Source: Oscillospiraceae bacterium (lineage in GTDB: Bacteria > Bacillota > Clostridia > Oscillospirales > Ruminococcaceae). Taken from it: 33,967 nt of DNA. The stretch covers positions 1 through 33,967 of the forward strand of contig JAQXNQ010000061.1 of the NCBI GenBank assembly GCA_029098085.1. The letters run 5' to 3'. A model generated the notes under the pieces. That model had not been told where the DNA came from, ran no database searches, and saw nothing but the letters and a program-made list of their open reading frames with translations. This document shows positions 777 to 9,405 of the stretch, one piece after another. A program made the position numbers and the translations under genes. Each line of letters starts with the position of its first letter. Position 1 is the stretch's first letter.

Positions 777-1271
777 ATGGCTAACACAAAAGGTGGCGTT
801 GCGTTCCACGACACTCCTGAACAGGCTGCGAAGCTGCAGGAGATCATCGCAGCGCACAAAAACGACAAGGGCGCACTGATGCCTGTTCTTCAGCAGGCTC
901 AGGAGGTGTACGGCTACCTTCCCATCGAAGTGCAGACCGTCATCGCCGAAGGACTGGAAGTTCCTCTGGAAGAGGTTTACGGCGTCGTGACCTTCTACGC
1001 GCAGTTCTCCCTCTACCCCAAGGGACAGTACAAGATTTCCGTCTGTCTCGGCACTGCCTGCTATGTCAAGGGCTCCGGCGATCTGTATGACCGTCTGCAG
1101 CAGGTACTGGGCATCGGCGGCGGCGAGTGCACCCCCGACGGAAAATTCTCCCTGGAGGCCTGCCGCTGCGTGGGCGCCTGCGGCCTTGCACCCGTCATGA
1201 TGGTCAACGAGGATGTTTACGGCAAGCTGGTTCCCGACGACATTCCGGGCATCCTGGCCAAATACGCCTGA
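777..1271 (+). CDS. hndA: NAD(P)-linked [FeFe]-hydrogenase, NuoE-like 2Fe-2S subunit
   Basis: This 164-residue protein is the NuoE/24-kDa-type subunit of a soluble hydrogenase (HndA in HndABCD, HydC in HydABC). It carries one [2Fe-2S] cluster on a thioredoxin-like fold and is thought to pass electrons within the complex. The helical N-terminus (LQEIIAAHKNDKGALMPVL) and YGYLPIEVQ are family-typical. The four cluster cysteines appear as CLGTAC (C-x4-C) and CRCVGAC (C-x3-C pair). The ATG at 777 has AAGGAGG about seven bases upstream. It is the first gene of a five-gene operon that continues with a HATPase, HndB, HndC and HndD. Length is normal for the family and nothing appears broken. Confidence 0.93.
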   Translation: MANTKGGVAFHDTPEQAAKLQEIIAAHKNDKGALMPVLQQAQEVYGYLPIEVQTVIAEGLEVPLEEVYGVVTFYAQFSLYPKGQYKISVCLGTACYVKGSGDLYDRLQQVLGIGGGECTPDGKFSLEACRCVGACGLAPVMMVNEDVYGKLVPDDIPGILAKYA

Positions 1272-1294
1272 TCTCTCATACGTTGATTGTAAAA

Positions 1295-1301
1295 GGGGGA
1301 G
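1295..1301 (+). promoter_or_regulatory. Ribosome binding site supporting a CTG start
   Basis: GGGGGAG lies six bases before CTG at 1308. An in-frame TAA at 1290-1292 closes the frame upstream, and no ATG, GTG or TTG occurs in frame before 1413, so this site is the best argument for initiation at CTG. Confidence 0.6.
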
Positions 1302-1307
1302 ATTCCG

Positions 1308-1850
1308 CTGCAGGAATTATCGCTGAACGTTCTGGACATCGCCCAGAACTCCATCCGTGCCAACGCGGCCCTGATCACCATTTCCATCAGCGAGAACACC
1401 GCTGAGCACCTGATGGAGATCTCGGTCTCCGACGACGGCTGCGGCATGTCGGAGGAGCAGGTTGCCCATGTGATGGATCCCTTTTTTACCACCCGCACCA
1501 CCCGCAAGGTGGGGCTCGGCGTTCCGCTGTTCCGGATGTCGGCCGAGGCCACCGGCGGCAGCTTCTCCATCCGCTCCAAGCTGGGAGAAGGCACCGTCAC
1601 CACCGCCTCCTATCACACCGATCACCTGGATATGCTCCCTCTGGGAGACATGACCGCCACCATCACCTCTCTGATCTCCGTCAACCCGGATCTGGACTTT
1701 GTCTATACTCGCACGGTGAACGGAAAAAGCTTTACGCTGGACACCAGAGAGCTGCGCACCGTGCTGGAGGGCGTTCCCCTGAATACCCCTGACGTGCTGC
1801 TGTTTATCAGGGATATGATCAACGAAAACACCGCTGAGCTGTCCGCGTGA
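1308..1850 (+). CDS. Stand-alone HATPase (GHKL) domain protein, probable CTG start
   Basis: The reading frame encodes a small GHKL ATPase with no phosphoacceptor domain. From 1308 the product is about 180 residues, beginning LQELSLNVLDIAQNSIRANA, and includes the N-box (the Asn of AQNS). The G1 box is DDGCGMSEEQ and the F/G2 region is DPFFTTR...GLGVPL. The ORF track starts at ATG 1413, which would remove the N-box, so that start is probably wrong. Proteins of this type recur between NuoE- and NuoF-like genes of clostridial hydrogenase operons; I recall them as roughly 180 residues starting MKELSLHILD-like. Their role is unknown, possibly a serine-kinase or anti-sigma-like switch. The C-terminal 60 residues are a separate small region without a recognised motif. 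Confidence 0.8.
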   Translation: MQELSLNVLDIAQNSIRANAALITISISENTAEHLMEISVSDDGCGMSEEQVAHVMDPFFTTRTTRKVGLGVPLFRMSAEATGGSFSIRSKLGEGTVTTASYHTDHLDMLPLGDMTATITSLISVNPDLDFVYTRTVNGKSFTLDTRELRTVLEGVPLNTPDVLLFIRDMINENTAELSA

Positions 1851-1925
1851 CAGAGCGGCAAATCCGATTCCCACGCGGGCGGATGAAGCTCCGCCCATAA
1901 TACCCGGAAAGGAATGATCATTCGA

Positions 1926-2291
1926 ATGAAAAGCCTGGAAGAACTCAAAGCAATTCGGGACAAAATGAAGAACACCGTCAATATCCGTGAAGAAAACAGC
2001 GACAACATCCGTGTCGTGGTCGGCATGGCCACCTGCGGCATCGCCGCCGGCGCCCGTCCCGTTCTGACTGCCTTCACCGAAGAGGTTGCCAAACGGAATC
2101 TGCAGAATGTCACTGTCACCCAGACCGGCTGCATCGGCATCTGCCAGTATGAGCCTGTTGTAGAGGTCTATGAGGCCGATGGTACCAAGACCACCTACAT
2201 CAAGATGACCGCCGACAAGGTGGCCAAGGTCGTCACCGATCATCTGGTCAACGGCAGCGTCGTCAAAGAATACACCATCGGAAATCTGTAA
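1926..2291 (+). CDS. hndB: HndB-like [2Fe-2S] thioredoxin-fold ferredoxin
   Basis: This protein of about 121 residues belongs to the (2Fe-2S) ferredoxin family of NADP-reducing hydrogenase subunit HndB. Cluster cysteines are visible as GMATCGIAAGA near the N-terminus and TGCIGICQYEP further on, ahead of VVEVYEADG. It presumably carries one [2Fe-2S] cluster in the electron chain of the hydrogenase. ATGs at 1914 and 1926 are both in frame. GGAAAGGA ends about two bases before the first and 12 before the second, and the second gives the typical MKSLEELKAIR start, so I use 1926. It lies between the HATPase gene and hndC, with a 16-base gap to hndC. Confidence 0.88.
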   Translation: MKSLEELKAIRDKMKNTVNIREENSDNIRVVVGMATCGIAAGARPVLTAFTEEVAKRNLQNVTVTQTGCIGICQYEPVVEVYEADGTKTTYIKMTADKVAKVVTDHLVNGSVVKEYTIGNL

Positions 2292-2306
2292 GGAGGAGGG
2301 CGCCCC

Positions 2307-4100
2307 ATGTATCGTTCCCACGTACTTATCTGCGGCGGCACCGGATGCACTTCTTCCGGCAGTCAGCAGATCGCTGAGACCCTCGAAAGCGAGCTCCGCA
2401 AAAACGGACTCGAGGAAGAGGTAAAAGTTGTAAGAACCGGCTGCTTCGGCCTGTGTGCTCTTGGCCCCATCATGATCGTCTATCCCGAGGGCTGCTTCTA
2501 TTCCGAAGTCAAGGTGGACGACATCCCCGAGATCGTCAGCGAGCACCTGCTCAAGGGCCGTATTGTCAAACGGCTGCTGTACTCCGAGACCGTTTCTCAG
2601 GAAGACAGCAACGTCAAGTCCCTGAATGAAACCCAGTTCTATGCCAAGCAGCACCGCGTTGCTCTGAGAAACTGCGGTGTTATCAACCCCGAAAACATCG
2701 ACGAGTACATCGGTATGGACGGCTACCAGGCTCTGGGCAAGGTTCTGACCGAAATGACTCCCCAGCAGGTCATCGACGAGATCCTGGCCTCCGGTCTGCG
2801 CGGACGCGGCGGCGGCGGATTCCCCACCGGCAGAAAATGGTCTCTGGCTGCGGTCAACGCCGCTCCTCAGAAGTATGTATGCTGCAACGCTGACGAAGGC
2901 GACCCCGGCGCATTCATGGACCGCTCCATTCTGGAAGGCGACCCCCATGTGGTGCTGGAAGCCATGGCCATCGCCGGCTATGCCATCGGTGCGACCCAGG
3001 GCTACATCTATGTCCGCGCCGAGTATCCCATCGCCGTGCATCGTCTGCAGGTTGCCATCAAGCAGGCCCGCGAATACGGTCTGCTGGGCAAGAACATCTT
3101 CGACACCGGCTTTGACTTCGACGTCGAGCTGCGGCTGGGCGCCGGCGCTTTTGTCTGCGGCGAGGAAACCGCTCTGATGACCTCCATCGAGGGCCACCGC
3201 GGTGAGCCCAGACCCCGTCCTCCCTTCCCTGCTGTCAAGGGTCTGTTTGAAAGCCCCACCATCCTGAACAACGTGGAAACCTACGCCAACGTTCCCCAGA
3301 TCATCCTCAAAGGCGCCCAGTGGTTCGCCTCCATGGGCACTGAGAAGTCCAAGGGCACCAAGGTCTTCGCTCTGGGCGGCAAGATCAAGAACACCGGTCT
3401 GGTCGAGGTTCCCATGGGCACTCCTCTGAGAGAGATCATCGAGGACATCGGCGGCGGCATTCCTAATGGAAAGAAGTTCAAGGCTGCCCAGACCGGCGGT
3501 CCTTCCGGCGGCTGCATCCCCGCTTCCCTGATCGACACCCCCATCGACTATGACAACCTGATCGCCATCGGCTCCATGATGGGCTCCGGCGGCCTGATTG
3601 TCATGGACGAGGACACCTGCATGGTGGATATCGCCAAATTCTTCCTGGAATTTACCGTAGACGAGTCCTGCGGCAAATGTACTCCCTGCCGTGTCGGCAC
3701 CAAGCGCCTCTATGAGATGCTGGACAAGATCACCCGCGGCACCGCCACCATGGAAGACCTGGACAAGATGGAAGAGCTCTGCTACTACATCAAGAACAAC
3801 TCCCTGTGCGGCCTGGGCCAGACTGCACCCAACCCCGTTCTGTCCACTCTGAGATACTTCCGTGATGAATACGAAGCCCACATCAAGGAAAAGCGCTGCC
3901 CCGCCGGCGTCTGCAAGCATCTGATGCAGATCACCATTCTGGCGGACAAGTGCAAGGGCTGCACCCTGTGCGCCAGAACCTGCCCTGTCGGCGCCATTGA
4001 GGGCACCGTCAAGAATCCTCACAAGGTCAACCAGGACAAGTGCATCAAGTGCGGCGCCTGCATGGAAAAGTGCAAGTTCGGCGCGATCATCAAGAAGTAA
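2307..4100 (+). CDS. hndC: Hydrogenase NuoF-like flavoprotein subunit (FMN, NAD(P)H site)
   Basis: At 597 residues this is the NuoF-type subunit that oxidises or reduces NAD(P)H at an FMN. Domain order: an N-terminal thioredoxin-like [2Fe-2S] domain (CGGTGCTSSGS, later RTGCFGLCALGP), then the NADH/FMN-binding domain from about residue 165 (GRGGGGFPTGRKW, ADEGDPGAFMDR). An SLBB-type segment follows, then the [4Fe-4S] NuoF C-terminal motif ESCGKCTPCRVG. At the end are two ferredoxin-type [4Fe-4S] motifs, CKGCTLCARTCPVGAI and CIKCGACMEKCKFGAI. This is the layout of HndC/HydB in electron-bifurcating or NADP-reducing hydrogenases. AGGAGG precedes ATG 2307. All cluster motifs look intact. Whether NAD or NADP is used cannot be read from sequence alone. 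Confidence 0.95.
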   Translation: MYRSHVLICGGTGCTSSGSQQIAETLESELRKNGLEEEVKVVRTGCFGLCALGPIMIVYPEGCFYSEVKVDDIPEIVSEHLLKGRIVKRLLYSETVSQEDSNVKSLNETQFYAKQHRVALRNCGVINPENIDEYIGMDGYQALGKVLTEMTPQQVIDEILASGLRGRGGGGFPTGRKWSLAAVNAAPQKYVCCNADEGDPGAFMDRSILEGDPHVVLEAMAIAGYAIGATQGYIYVRAEYPIAVHRLQVAIKQAREYGLLGKNIFDTGFDFDVELRLGAGAFVCGEETALMTSIEGHRGEPRPRPPFPAVKGLFESPTILNNVETYANVPQIILKGAQWFASMGTEKSKGTKVFALGGKIKNTGLVEVPMGTPLREIIEDIGGGIPNGKKFKAAQTGGPSGGCIPASLIDTPIDYDNLIAIGSMMGSGGLIVMDEDTCMVDIAKFFLEFTVDESCGKCTPCRVGTKRLYEMLDKITRGTATMEDLDKMEELCYYIKNNSLCGLGQTAPNPVLSTLRYFRDEYEAHIKEKRCPAGVCKHLMQITILADKCKGCTLCARTCPVGAIEGTVKNPHKVNQDKCIKCGACMEKCKFGAIIKK

Positions 4101-4116
4101 AGGAGTGTAAGCCCCA

Positions 4117-5859
4117 ATGATCAATTTGAAAATCAACAACATCCCTGTGTCGGTGGAGCCCGGAACCACCATCCTGGAAGCTGCCCGCCAGCTGGGGATC
4201 AACATTCCTACCCTCTGCTACCTGAAGGACATCAATGAGATCGGCGCCTGCCGTATCTGCACCGTTGAGGTCAAGGGTGCCCGCGGCCTGCTGCCTGCCT
4301 GCGTTTACCCCGTCAATGAGGGCATGGAAGTATTCACCAACACCAAGAAGGTGCTGGATGCCAGAAAGACCAACCTGGAACTGCTCCTGTCGGTTCACAA
4401 CCGCAAGTGCCTGTCCTGCCCCAGAAGCGGCAGCTGCGAATTCCAGAAGCTCTGCAACGACTACAACATCACCGCCGAGGATGCCTTTGAGGGCGTCAAG
4501 AACGATTATGAGATCGACGATACCGCCCCTCACATGATCCGCGACAACTCCAAGTGCGTTCTCTGCCGCCGCTGCGTCGCCGTCTGCCGCAAATGGCAGG
4601 ATGTAGGCGTCATCGGCCCCAACGAGCGCGGCTTCAACACCCATATCGGCTGTGCCTTTGACACCGAGCTGGGCAGCGTTTCCTGCGTCTCCTGCGGTCA
4701 GTGCATCGTCGCCTGCCCCACCGGCGCTCTCCAGGAAAAGGACAGCACCGAGGCTGTCTGGGCGGCTCTCTCCGATCCCACCAAGACCGTCATCGTGCAG
4801 ACCGCTCCCGCCGTCCGCGCTGGCCTGGGTGAAGCCTTCGGCTATCCCATGGGCACCGATGTGGAAGGCAAGATGGTCGCCGCTCTCCGCCGCATCGGCT
4901 TTGCCAAGGTGTTCGACACCAACTTCGGCGCTGACCTGACCATCATGGAAGAGGCCAACGAGCTGGTAGAGCGGATCCAGAACGGCGGCGTGCTGCCCAT
5001 GATTACCTCCTGCTCTCCCGGCTGGGTCAAGTACTGTGAGCACTACTTCCCCGACCTGATCCCCAACCTTTCCTCCTGCAAGTCTCCCCAGCAGATGTTT
5101 GGCGCCATCGCCAAGACCTGGTACGCCAAGCAGATCGGCGTGGATCCCAAGGATATGGTCGTTGTTTCGGTCATGCCCTGCACCGCCAAGAAGTTTGAGA
5201 TCGGCCGTCCCGATCAGTCTGCTGCCGGCGTTCCCGACGTGGACATCTCCATCACCACCCGTGAGCTGGTCAAGATGATCCATGCTGCCGGTCTGGAGTT
5301 TACTGCTCTGCCTGACGAAGAGTTCGACGCTCCTCTGGGCCTGGATACCGGCGCCGGCGTCATCTTCGGCGCAACCGGCGGCGTTATGGAAGCAGCTCTC
5401 CGTACTGCCAAGGACTGGCTCACCGGCCAGGACAACCCCGTTGAAGCGCTTGATTATCAGGCGATCCGCGGCACCGAAGGCATCAAGGAAGCTTCCTTTG
5501 AAATCGGCGGCCTGACCCTGAAGGTAGCTGTCTGCTCCGGTCTGGTCAACGCCAAGAAGGTGCTGAAGGCCGTTCAGGCCGGCACTGCTGACTACCAGTT
5601 CATCGAAATCATGGCCTGCCCCGGCGGCTGCGTCAACGGCGGCGGTCAGCCCTTCCAGCCCGCTTCTGTCCGCAACTTCGTGGACATCCGTGCGGAGCGC
5701 GCCAAGGCCCTGTACTCCAACGACGAGGGCAATACCCTGCGCAAGTCTCATGACAATCCTGCCATCAAGAAGCTGTACGAGGAGTTCCTCGGCAAGCCCG
5801 GCAGCCACACCGCTCATGAGATTCTGCATACCTCCTATGTGGCCCGTCCCAAATATTGA
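4117..5859 (+). CDS. hndD: [FeFe]-hydrogenase catalytic subunit (HydA/HndD)
   Basis: This 580-residue group A [FeFe]-hydrogenase reversibly reduces protons to H2 at the H-cluster. The order is: N-terminal plant-type [2Fe-2S] domain (GACRICTVEV), a His/Cys-ligated [4Fe-4S] site (HNRKCLSCPRSGSC), two ferredoxin [4Fe-4S] motifs (CVLCRRCVAVC, CVSCGQCIVAC), then the H domain. H-cluster motifs are TSCSPGW (Cys299), MPCTAKKFE (Cys355) and EIMACPGGCVNGGGQP (Cys501, Cys505). The spacing almost equals that of Clostridium pasteurianus CpI as I recall it. The L1 motif has Ser where classic enzymes have the second Cys of TSCCP. It is the last gene of the operon, 16 bases after hndC, and is followed by a strong terminator. 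Confidence 0.96.
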   Translation: MINLKINNIPVSVEPGTTILEAARQLGINIPTLCYLKDINEIGACRICTVEVKGARGLLPACVYPVNEGMEVFTNTKKVLDARKTNLELLLSVHNRKCLSCPRSGSCEFQKLCNDYNITAEDAFEGVKNDYEIDDTAPHMIRDNSKCVLCRRCVAVCRKWQDVGVIGPNERGFNTHIGCAFDTELGSVSCVSCGQCIVACPTGALQEKDSTEAVWAALSDPTKTVIVQTAPAVRAGLGEAFGYPMGTDVEGKMVAALRRIGFAKVFDTNFGADLTIMEEANELVERIQNGGVLPMITSCSPGWVKYCEHYFPDLIPNLSSCKSPQQMFGAIAKTWYAKQIGVDPKDMVVVSVMPCTAKKFEIGRPDQSAAGVPDVDISITTRELVKMIHAAGLEFTALPDEEFDAPLGLDTGAGVIFGATGGVMEAALRTAKDWLTGQDNPVEALDYQAIRGTEGIKEASFEIGGLTLKVAVCSGLVNAKKVLKAVQAGTADYQFIEIMACPGGCVNGGGQPFQPASVRNFVDIRAERAKALYSNDEGNTLRKSHDNPAIKKLYEEFLGKPGSHTAHEILHTSYVARPKY

Positions 5860-5882
5860 TCTCACCACCCAGCCATAGAACT

Positions 5883-5922
5883 GGCCCCCGCGGAGTCTGT
5901 GCTCCGCGGGGGCCTCTTTTTT
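5883..5922 (+). terminator. Rho-independent terminator of the hydrogenase operon
   Basis: GGCCCCCGCGGAG and CTCCGCGGGGGCC form a perfect 13-base stem with a six-base loop, followed by TCTTTTTT. Confidence 0.93.
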
Positions 5923-5944
5923 CGGGAAGATATGCCCGCTTGAA

Positions 5945-5973
5945 TTGTATTCTGCCGCAGAATATGGTATAAT
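5945..5973 (+). promoter_or_regulatory. Promoter of the rlmB operon with palindrome in the spacer
   Basis: TTGTAT, 17 bases, then TATAAT preceded by TGG (extended -10). The spacer region holds ATTCTGC-C-GCAGAAT (5949-5963), a perfect 15-base palindrome that would overlap RNA polymerase and could be an operator. Downstream, the leader to 6107 has two small stems, TCTGC/GCAGA (5992-6009) and GGCCGG/CCGGCC (6074-6091). The second lies directly before the GGAAAGG ribosome site. Confidence 0.65.
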
Positions 5974-6107
5974 AAAAAATAATCGGCAAAATCTGCTGTT
6001 TTCCGCAGACTGCCGCCACCTGTGAAGGAATCTGTCCCGGCAGGCCGTTTTCTGATTGCATTCATTTCAAAGAGGCCGGCTTTCTCCGGCCGGAAAGGCA
6101 GTACAAT

Positions 6108-6983
6108 ATGACCAAACCTCCCCGTAAAAACGACCGAAACGACCGTCCCGCCCGGTGGGGCAACCGGCCGCCCCGTCCCCAGCGCCCCCGTCAGAAATCC
6201 GAGAGCTACGCCGAGCAGGGCGGCTATGACAACATGATTGCCGGCCGCAACGCCGTGCTGGAAGCCCTCAAGACCGGTCAGCGGATCGATACCCTCTATC
6301 TCGCTCCCGGGCAGACCGGCAGCATCTCCCGCATCATCGCCGCGGCCAAGGAGCTGGGCTGCCCCATCAAGGAAGTTTCCTATGAAAAGCTGGACGCCAT
6401 GGCCTTCGGCATCAACCACCAGGGCGTGATTCTGACCCTGTCCGCCGCGGAATATGTGGAGGTGGCGGACATTCTCCGCGCTGCCGCCGACAAGGGCGAA
6501 GCGCCCTTCCTGATCATCGCCGACGAAATCGAGGATCCCCACAATCTGGGAGCCCTGATCCGCACCGCCGAAACCGCCGGCGCGCACGGCCTTGTGATCC
6601 CCAAGCGGCGGGGCGTGGGCCTGACCTCGGCCGTCTTCAAGTCCTCCGCCGGTGCCGCCGCCCATCTGCCGGTGGCGCGGGTGGCCAATCTGGCATCGGT
6701 GGTGGAGGAGCTGAAGAGCCAGGGCATCTGGGTCTATGGCTGCGATATGGATGGCCAACCCTGGTGCCAGGTGGACTTCTCCGGCGGCGTGGCTCTGATT
6801 GTGGGCTCGGAAGGCCGGGGCATGAACCGCCTGCTCAAGGATAAATGTGACACCATGGTCACCCTCCCCATGCAGGGCGAGATTTCCTCCCTCAACGCTT
6901 CGGTGGCGGGAGGCATCATCATGTACGAGGTCGCCCGGCAGCGGCTGGGGCTGACCGCCGTTTCCCCCAAGGTCAAGGATTAA
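6108..6983 (+). CDS. rlmB: 23S rRNA (guanosine-2'-O-)-methyltransferase, TrmH/RlmB family
   Basis: This 291-residue SpoU/TrmH-class SAM-dependent ribose methyltransferase carries the family motifs in order. These are an N-terminal substrate-binding domain (AGRNAVLEALKTG at about 44-56), motif 1 IEDPHNLGALIRTAE, motif 2 VGSEGRGM and motif 3 LPMQGEISSLNASVA. RlmB of Escherichia coli methylates G2251 of 23S rRNA; the exact target here is inferred. About 40 residues before the substrate domain are basic and proline-rich (PRKNDRNDRPARWGNRPP), probably a disordered RNA-binding tail. The ATG at 6108 follows GGAAAGG by about nine bases. It heads a three-gene unit with the pseudo-ATPase gene (28-base gap) and the acetyltransferase gene. 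Confidence 0.92.
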   Translation: MTKPPRKNDRNDRPARWGNRPPRPQRPRQKSESYAEQGGYDNMIAGRNAVLEALKTGQRIDTLYLAPGQTGSISRIIAAAKELGCPIKEVSYEKLDAMAFGINHQGVILTLSAAEYVEVADILRAAADKGEAPFLIIADEIEDPHNLGALIRTAETAGAHGLVIPKRRGVGLTSAVFKSSAGAAAHLPVARVANLASVVEELKSQGIWVYGCDMDGQPWCQVDFSGGVALIVGSEGRGMNRLLKDKCDTMVTLPMQGEISSLNASVAGGIIMYEVARQRLGLTAVSPKVKD

Positions 6984-7011: not shown

Positions 7012-9405
7012 GTGAGCCAAAAAGATCCTACCATCGACGATATTCTCAGAGAACTGGAGCTGGCGGATTCCGCCCAGAGCGATAGCAGCCCCACGGGACT
7101 GCCGGATGTGGACGCTCTGGTGCAGGATCTGATCGAAGAGCGGCAGCAGCCCGGCATTGACCCCCATTCCGGAAAGGAACTGCCCACCCGGGTGTTCCTC
7201 CGCTCCAAAAAGAAACGCCCCCCTGCAGAGCCTGCCGCAGCGGAGCCGCTGGAAGCCCTGCTGTCCGAGCTGGGCGCCGCCCCGGCCGCTGATGCGCAGA
7301 AAGCGCCGCCCTCTGCGCCGTCCCCCGCTCCAAAAGTCCCTTCTCCGGATGAGGCACCCAAAGTGCAGACCCCGCCTGCCGCAAATCCCTCAAAACCCGA
7401 GCCGCCGGAGGCGGAGCCTTTTGAAAAAACGCCGCCTCCATCTGCACCGAAAGCTGCGCCGCCCAAAAAGCAAGCGCCTCCCTCCGAAGACGAGACCGCC
7501 TATATCACCGGCCCCATCTCCATCGATATCGACGCCATCCGTGCCGGAACCCCCACCCCCAAGCCCATCCCCGCTCAGAAGATCGAGCCGGAGGAGCAGT
7601 CTCCCCCGGAGGAGGATCCCGCCTCCGGAAAGCCCCAGACCGCCCCGCGGTCGGGCCGGAACCCCCTTGCCCCCTGCTTCCGGCGGGCAGCCGCCGGAAA
7701 GGATCCCAATCAGCCCGGCGAGCTGGAAGCCATCTTCCGCCGGATCAGTGCCTCGGCCCAGACAAGGGGATGGATTCTGCTGCTGCTCTTCGTCTTTTCG
7801 CTGGTGCTGGTGTTTCTGATGGATCAGAGCCGCCACGCCGAAGCCGGGTGGATTCCCTCCCGCTGGCTCATGGGCCTGCTGACCGGTCTGGGCATCGGCG
7901 CCGGAGCAGCTGCGCTGCCGGTCATTGGAAGCGGCCTTCTCTCCCTGTGCAAGCTGGAGGAAAACCGCGACACGCCGCCCGCTCTGGCCTGGCTCATCAC
8001 GCTGGCCCAGACCCTGACCCTGACCATCTGGCCGAAGGGCTTCATCCATCCGCACATTCACTGTTACCTGCCCCTGGGCATCCTGCTGCTGGCGGCCGCC
8101 TTTCTGGGACGGCTGCTGACAGCCCACGCCGGTCTCCGCAGCCTGCGCTTTCTCCATGGACAGGGGGACAAATACGTTCCCCATCTGGTGGAGGACAAGC
8201 GGCTCGCCTCCGAGTTGTCCCGGGGTCTTCCCAATGAAGGGGAGCCGCCCGCCGTCAACCGCCGTTCCGCCGCCATCACCGATCTGGCCGCCTCCGCGCT
8301 GGGCACCGATTCCAGCGACCGGATGAGCCGGGTTCTGGTGCTGATCGGTCTGTCTGCCGGTGCGGCGGCAGCGCTGATCGGCCTCATCTGCACCAGTCAG
8401 AAGCATTTCGCCGTCACGCTGTTTTCCGCTGTCAACCTTCTGTTTGCCTCCATCCCGCTGGTTTTGCTCACGGCCTCCCCCGTCTCCCGCACGGCCAGGC
8501 TGATGGAAAAACAGCGGGGCATGGTCAGCGGCGAAGCCGGAGCCGAACGCTACCGGCAGGCGGGCTCCGTCCTGCTCAGCGCTCCCCAGCTGATTCCCTC
8601 CGACTTCATCTCTCTGGCCGCCATCAAAACCTTTGAGGGCACCCGACTGGACGATGTGCTGGTGGATGCTGCCTCGGTGCTGCGGGAGACCGACAGCATC
8701 CTGACCGACCTGTTCACCAAAATCACCGGGCAGAAAAAAGAACTGCTCCGTCAGGCGGACAACGTGGAACTGGAGGAAGGCTGCGGCATCTCCGGCTGGG
8801 TCGACGGAAAGCGCATCCTCATCGGCAATCGGGCCATGATGGCCGCCTACGATGTCCGGATCCCCAGCAAGGAATACGAGCGGCGCTACACCTCCAAGGG
8901 TCACGATCTGGTCTATCTGGCCGCCTCGGGCGAACTGGCCGCCATTTTCGTGCTGACGCTCCATGTGCCGCTGCAGGTTTCGGAGGCGGTTCAGTCCCTG
9001 GCGGACAACGGCTTCGGCCTGATCGTACATTCGGTGGACAGCCTGCTGACACCGGAGCGTCTGGGCAGACTGTTCGATGTGGATCCCGCTCAGATCAAGG
9101 TGCTGCCCCACCGGCTGATTCCCTACGCCGGACGGCTGAGCAGCGACGTGCGGGCCAAGCAGGCCCTGGCTGTCAACGACGGCAGCATCAGCGGACTGAC
9201 CGGCTGCCTGATCGGCGCCCGGCAGCTGCGGTCCATGATCTCCCTGAACCGGGTGCTGGCCATTACCTCCATCGTGCTGGGCTGCATGCTGCTGCTGATC
9301 TTCTCGCTGCTGGACGCCATGCGCTACCTGTCCCCCCTGCTGCTCTGCGGCTATGCACTGACCTGGATGGTGCTTAGCTGGCTGCTGCAGAAATTCTTCC
9401 GCTGA
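7012..9405 (+). CDS. Degenerate P-type ATPase-like membrane protein with Pro-rich N-terminus
   Basis: This 797-residue protein starts at GTG with GGAAGGAG upstream. Residues 1 to about 240 are low-complexity, rich in Pro, Ala, Glu and Lys. Four membrane segments follow (about 253-375), then a cytosolic stretch, a further pair (about 439-495), a soluble domain and C-terminal helices (from about 745). From about 480 it follows the order of a P1B-type ATPase. ASIPLVLLTASPVSRTARL sits where the CPC helix belongs, and GSVLLSAPQLIPSD where DKTGT should be. GCGISGWVDGKRILIGNR matches the nucleotide-domain GxGVxGxVxGxxxxxGN motif. LPHRL and AVNDGSISGL sit where LPEDK and the GDGxNDxP loop should be. 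The phosphorylated Asp, the metal-binding Cys pair and the TGE loop are not found. I infer a pseudoenzyme of unknown role. Confidence 0.7.
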   Translation: MSQKDPTIDDILRELELADSAQSDSSPTGLPDVDALVQDLIEERQQPGIDPHSGKELPTRVFLRSKKKRPPAEPAAAEPLEALLSELGAAPAADAQKAPPSAPSPAPKVPSPDEAPKVQTPPAANPSKPEPPEAEPFEKTPPPSAPKAAPPKKQAPPSEDETAYITGPISIDIDAIRAGTPTPKPIPAQKIEPEEQSPPEEDPASGKPQTAPRSGRNPLAPCFRRAAAGKDPNQPGELEAIFRRISASAQTRGWILLLLFVFSLVLVFLMDQSRHAEAGWIPSRWLMGLLTGLGIGAGAAALPVIGSGLLSLCKLEENRDTPPALAWLITLAQTLTLTIWPKGFIHPHIHCYLPLGILLLAAAFLGRLLTAHAGLRSLRFLHGQGDKYVPHLVEDKRLASELSRGLPNEGEPPAVNRRSAAITDLAASALGTDSSDRMSRVLVLIGLSAGAAAALIGLICTSQKHFAVTLFSAVNLLFASIPLVLLTASPVSRTARLMEKQRGMVSGEAGAERYRQAGSVLLSAPQLIPSDFISLAAIKTFEGTRLDDVLVDAASVLRETDSILTDLFTKITGQKKELLRQADNVELEEGCGISGWVDGKRILIGNRAMMAAYDVRIPSKEYERRYTSKGHDLVYLAASGELAAIFVLTLHVPLQVSEAVQSLADNGFGLIVHSVDSLLTPERLGRLFDVDPAQIKVLPHRLIPYAGRLSSDVRAKQALAVNDGSISGLTGCLIGARQLRSMISLNRVLAITSIVLGCMLLLIFSLLDAMRYLSPLLLCGYALTWMVLSWLLQKFFR

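Follow-up and report, generated by a model that had tools for sequence, protein, structure and literature searches.

What does a protein with the build of a copper pump do once its catalytic motifs are gone? This question is raised by an open reading frame in the window, i.e., the whole stretch of 33,967 nucleotides of an Oscillospiraceae bacterium analyzed here, that begins 28 nt after the end of rlmB (Table 1). P-type ATPases are textbook pumps, and to our knowledge pseudo-versions of them are hardly known. A sequence-only reading of this DNA had called the product a pseudo-P-type ATPase, and the comparisons below bear this out.

Descent of the protein and loss of its motifs

The Pfam search with the 797-aa protein returned no family at or above cut-off, and Pfam gave only weak hydrolase matches across 32 of its relatives. 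The best NCBIfam match was the CopA equivalog (NF007952, E = 1.4e-11), with a score of 43.3 bits versus a curated cut-off of 1316 bits. No Pfam or NCBIfam model covers the family, and no paper on it was found, in line with the earlier remark that no such family had been described. The closest solved relative by sequence is Legionella CopA (LpCopA 3rfu, E = 3e-8). A profile-profile comparison of the family with P1B ATPases (hhalign) gave E = 6.8e-34 over 472 columns. When the core is aligned with true P-type ATPases encoded in the same or in related genomes, it is collinear with CopA through MA, MB, M1, M2, a reduced A domain, M3, M4, P, N, P, M5, and M6. The P1B order had been thought to be kept from the sixth helix on; this is not the case, as the profile alignment begins before MA and the helices follow that order from the first one on.

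The core was modeled with AlphaFold2 from 79 natural sequences (pLDDT 89.8, pTM 0.83). Eight long membrane helices are predicted, with MA and MB ahead of M1 as in the P1B layout, and the P and N domain folds, predicted with high confidence, match those of solved P1B ATPases. Indeed, the top 13 Foldseek matches in the PDB were all P1B ATPases; LpCopA 4bbj was matched with E = 2.5e-17, and the highest TM-score, 0.60, was obtained with 7r0g. The membrane, P, and N domains thus have fold and homology in common with the P-type ATPase superfamily, and it is near certain that the product is a CopA-type P1B ATPase by descent over the whole length of its core.

Table 1 Features of the rlmB and pseudo-P1B-ATPase locus in the window
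Feature	Position	Strand	Remarks
rlmB, 23S rRNA (guanosine-2251-2'-O)-methyltransferase	6108..6983	+	TIGR00186 8e-71, above cut-off
Pseudo-P1B-ATPase gene	7012..9405	+	GTG start, 797 aa, no internal stop
N-terminal helical motif DPTIDDILRELELADS	7027..7074	+	Family consensus Y-x-V-D-D-I-L-x-E-I-x-x-K-K
Pro/Ala/Glu low-complexity linker, residues 25-230	7084..7701	+	Predicted disordered
Helices MA, MB, M1, M2, residues 235-381	7714..8154	+	AF2 helices 235-275, 283-314, 321-345, 353-381; CopA alignment
Actuator (A) domain remnant, ~50 residues, TGE deleted	8158..8307	+	Strands 387-392, 413-423
Helices M3-M4, residues 434-500	8311..8511	+	CPC position is SIP; xP[L/F] in many relatives
P domain part one, residues 501-545	8512..8646	+	DKTGT position is SAPQL
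N (nucleotide-binding) domain, residues 546-628	8647..8895	+	SEHP lost, GxG...IGNR retained
P domain part two, residues 629-724	8896..9183	+	TGD position is SVD; GDGIND deleted
Helices M5-M6, residues 726-795	9187..9396	+	YN, MxxSS lost

None of the motifs TGE, CPC, DKTGT, SEHP, TGD, GDGIND, YN, and MxxSS is kept in any of the 47 aligned family members; in the reference set, 20 true P-type ATPases encoded in the same or in related genomes, DKTGT and GDGIND were present in 20/20. DKTGT is therefore lost across the clade rather than in one decayed copy. The TGE site is absent by deletion in 46 of the 47 members, and TGES was found in none of 126. Alignment with true P1B ATPases revealed deletions of ~60 A-domain residues spanning TGE and of ~30 P-domain residues spanning GDGIND. 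The earlier claim that CPC, DKTGT, TGE, and GDGxND are lost or replaced thus holds for all four, with the refinement that TGE and GDGxND were removed by deletion and not by mere mutation. DKTGT is replaced in register: an Asp is retained at its position in some members and is never followed by K-T-G. The CPC/CPx position in M4 is mostly xP[L/F/I/A/V] across the 47 members. DKTG or GDGxxD strings occur in five members and were ruled out as catalytic sites, as they are located in the tail or in the linker between P and N.

Judged from these alignments, loss of catalysis in the family is near certain. Since neither a CopA-like phosphorylation cycle nor copper binding would be possible, pumping by the P-type cycle is rejected with high confidence; with SEHP lost, the affinity for ATP may be gone as well. 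As the protein is a P1B ATPase by descent and lacks every catalytic feature of that class, we file it as a pseudo-P-type ATPase. With CopA (P1B-1 copper exporter; LpCopA 3rfu/4bbj, NF007952) it shares the eight-helix layout, the domain order, and the N and P folds. It differs from CopA in the absence of CPC, TGE, DKTGT, SEHP, GDGxND, YN, and MxxSS, in its reduced A domain, in having no metal-binding domain, and in its long disordered N-terminus, which carries a motif of its own.

N-terminal motif, linker, and conservation

A disordered tail of 240 residues had been described for this protein. Disorder is predicted here as well; however, the tail is N-terminal (about residues 25-230) and follows a conserved motif (residues 8-19). 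This motif reads I-D-D-I-L-R-E-L in the window protein and V-D-D-I-L-x-E-I in most relatives, and I11, L12, and E14 are nearly invariant. It was found within the first 60 aa in 91/120 members, compared with 0.15 expected from shuffles, while 29/120 have no recognizable motif. In one family of the order (f10), most of the sampled genomes have open frames of only ~550-565 aa, and the tail is thus mostly missing there. The full-length model has a helix at residues 8-24 (mean pLDDT 81 over residues 11-20), then a linker with mean pLDDT mostly below 50 (residues 65-216), and then the high-confidence core.

Conservation follows the same layout, with 0.66 for the motif and 0.37, the lowest value of the protein, for the linker. 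The N domain is the most conserved part, at about 0.68-0.72 versus 0.48-0.60 in the rest of the core. Residues G592, W596, R601, and G605 are invariant there in the 79-sequence alignment, and W596, V597, and R601 are new invariant residues of this family. The parts retained under selection are the bundle of membrane helices, the N domain, and the N-terminal motif.

The idea that the motif is a general tag of many proteins was dropped, as its N-terminal matches in DNA pattern scans mostly belong to the pseudo-P1B-ATPase family. The sole other N-terminal, tail-bearing case in these scans was an ABC-2 permease in genome G536. By eye, this protein (L186/L202) resembles permeases of polysaccharide export and combines the motif FSIDDILAEI with a disordered-looking linker and a membrane domain; it may share the putative partner of the pseudo-P1B-ATPase.

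Distribution, selection, and linkage to rlmB

The family was matched in 184/197 genomes of the order, which we infer to be GTDB Oscillospirales, and in 149/154 of those of good quality; no match was found in 279 genomes of the class outside the order. When 399 genomes of the phylum were searched with a profile, six genomes of the order scored E < 1e-148. None of the other 393 had a comparable score; the best of them reached ~1e-40 over the part in common with ordinary P-type ATPases, and DKTGT was present in those of these matches outside the order that were retrieved. Named members include Anaerotruncus, Caproiciproducens, Acetanaerobacterium, Negativibacillus, and Hydrogenoanaerobacterium. 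Each matched genome has a single copy, the one exception being the fragmented G494, with two matches. What looked like a second copy in Merdimmobilis hominis (G017; L035 ~4660-6700) was dismissed as an assembly artefact, as an N scaffold gap is flanked there by repeated rlmB and family-gene sequence.

Pairwise comparisons of the core gave dN/dS values of 0.03-0.22, which indicates purifying selection, and nearly all genomes have an open reading frame for the protein. An in-frame TGA at ~5252 splits the gene in G058 (L018/L039). Since the gene is strictly maintained with its engine gone, the protein must do another job than pumping. The view that this is a decaying pseudogene, which the lost catalytic motifs might suggest, is refuted by the same loss throughout the order together with the low dN/dS and the open frames, and we give it almost no weight. 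The earlier proposal that the scaffold has been given a new role, as a sensor or a structural protein, is well supported, as far as repurposing goes, by conservation, selection, and single copy number.

The linkage to rlmB proved to be conserved. In 38/40 regions from some two dozen families, the methyltransferase gene is the immediate upstream neighbor and has the same orientation; it is also directly upstream in 71/80 named loci. Of the other nine loci, five are cut off by a contig edge, in three rlmB lies slightly further upstream, and one is L137. In at least two genomes (G014 and G037), rlmB is found elsewhere, unlinked. Of the two neighbors pointed out earlier, an rRNA methylase and an acetyltransferase, only the former is conserved: downstream neighbors, including the GNAT gene of the window, are not conserved in the compared regions. 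Neither copA nor any other metal gene was seen linked to the family gene in these regions, and an EF-G-like gene lies near the family gene in 9 of the 40. Among the 13/197 genomes without the family gene, 11 are also without rlmB, and four of these 11 have a completeness of 95% or more, a pattern that would fit joint loss as well as a shared assembly gap. Distances between RlmB proteins correlate with those between family proteins (r = 0.62, Mantel 0/2000), as expected under vertical inheritance.

The usual neighbor of rlmB in Bacillus is yacP. PF05991 (NYN_YacP) was found in 15/59 genomes of the order, only within open frames of ~870-1330 codons, and a stand-alone yacP was not seen in the 59; this suggests that NYN_YacP is fused to a larger protein in the order. 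A conserved protein of ~90 aa is encoded upstream of rlmB in seven regions (e.g., L042:5762-6034, L044:4856-5140, and L036:11046-11348); its consensus is MxxGVNKxIxEIN...YFEKAILF, and neither of the two sequences tested had a Pfam match. Directly upstream of rlmB in the window (777-5859), translations read by eye point to an electron-bifurcating [FeFe] hydrogenase-like cluster with NuoE-like, NuoF-like, and iron-only hydrogenase subunits.

Possible roles of the family

In our best explanation, these proteins are a family of pseudo-P-type ATPases, confined to the order and not described before, that arose from a CopA-like copper pump before the radiation of the order. The comparisons show P1B descent and fold, the loss of every motif required for phosphorylation, dephosphorylation, and metal transport, single copy number, purifying selection, and rlmB linkage. 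Held at slightly less than even confidence is the function we infer for them, that of a membrane-anchored scaffold or ligand-gated adaptor/receptor. Such a protein would neither pump nor hydrolyze ATP through the P-type cycle; its eight-helix core would serve as a membrane anchor, the retained N domain would be a binding module for nucleotide or protein, and the N-terminal helix on its long flexible tether would catch a cytosolic partner. The binding module is suggested by the high conservation of the N domain, and the tether by the motif in 91/120 members ahead of a poorly conserved linker. Several observations speak against this model: the tail is mostly missing in f10, 29/120 members have no recognizable motif, ATP affinity may have gone with SEHP, and rlmB is unlinked in at least two genomes. 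It should be noted that the rlmB linkage does not point to a scaffold role in particular.

KdpB of KdpFABC is among the fold matches of the family; unlike the family, it is catalytically active, as a subunit of the four-subunit K+ pump. P1B ATPases usually act as monomers, which speaks against a regulatory partnership with an active P-type ATPase, such as the real CopA of the genome, via hetero-association. The family descends from CopA, and many of the genomes that carry it, including G000, also encode true CopA-type pumps; the metal motifs are gone, however, and with no copA or metal-gene linkage seen, we regard such a partnership as quite improbable. Transport by another mechanism, e.g., as a passive channel, seems more improbable still: all eight helices are predicted to be retained, but the metal-coordinating CPC, YN, and MxxSS are lost in 47/47 members, and the part of the A domain that couples the cycle is deleted.

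A translation-linked membrane protein that docks ribosomes, RlmB, or a translation factor would account for the pairing with rlmB in 38/40 regions, and the co-absence of rlmB in 11/13 genomes, the EF-G-like gene close by in 9/40 regions, and the lack of yacP in most of the order (PF05991 in 15/59) are consistent with it. However, adjacency and contig gaps would lead one to expect most of the co-absence, operons can last throughout an order without direct functional coupling, and rlmB is unlinked in G014 and G037, so that we consider this role unlikely. Somewhat unlikely, too, is the other main rival, in which the N domain would sense a nucleotide or metabolite: a ligand bound without hydrolysis would shift the membrane helices or free the tail and so signal the energy or nucleotide state. 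The N domain has the highest conservation of the protein, GxG...GN of the P1B nucleotide pocket is partly kept (GN in 25/47), and G605 is invariant even in the most diverse alignment. Against this, the adenine-contacting SEHP is lost in 47/47, and the new invariant W596, V597, and R601 may instead serve protein contacts. A sensor also has some precedent in human TMEM94/ERMA, which lacks TGES; in one study, it showed no ATPase activity but bound AMPPCP with micromolar affinity (PMC12134183). An opposing study describes TMEM94 as an active Mg2+ ATPase (PMC13322241), and the catalytic activity of this protein is disputed. The likeness to our family, drawn from published descriptions, lies in a P-type architecture without TGES; TMEM94 differs in its ten helices, its location in the eukaryotic ER, and a candidate phosphorylation-site Asp (D417) that is still discussed. 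TMEM94 was the sole relevant precedent found in the literature, where no pseudo-P-type ATPase was found described as conserved across a bacterial order.

More tentatively, the scaffold or receptor may be a core, possibly essential, non-catalytic component that defines the order and whose motif, on its disordered leash, tethers a cytosolic machine, perhaps a translation-linked one. As a near-universal, single-copy, order-specific, and unnamed gene of dominant gut bacteria (relatives of Anaerotruncus and Caproiciproducens), it is a strong target in the search for a core function special to this order, and the family provides a natural test of what the P-type scaffold can do after the loss of its catalytic cycle.
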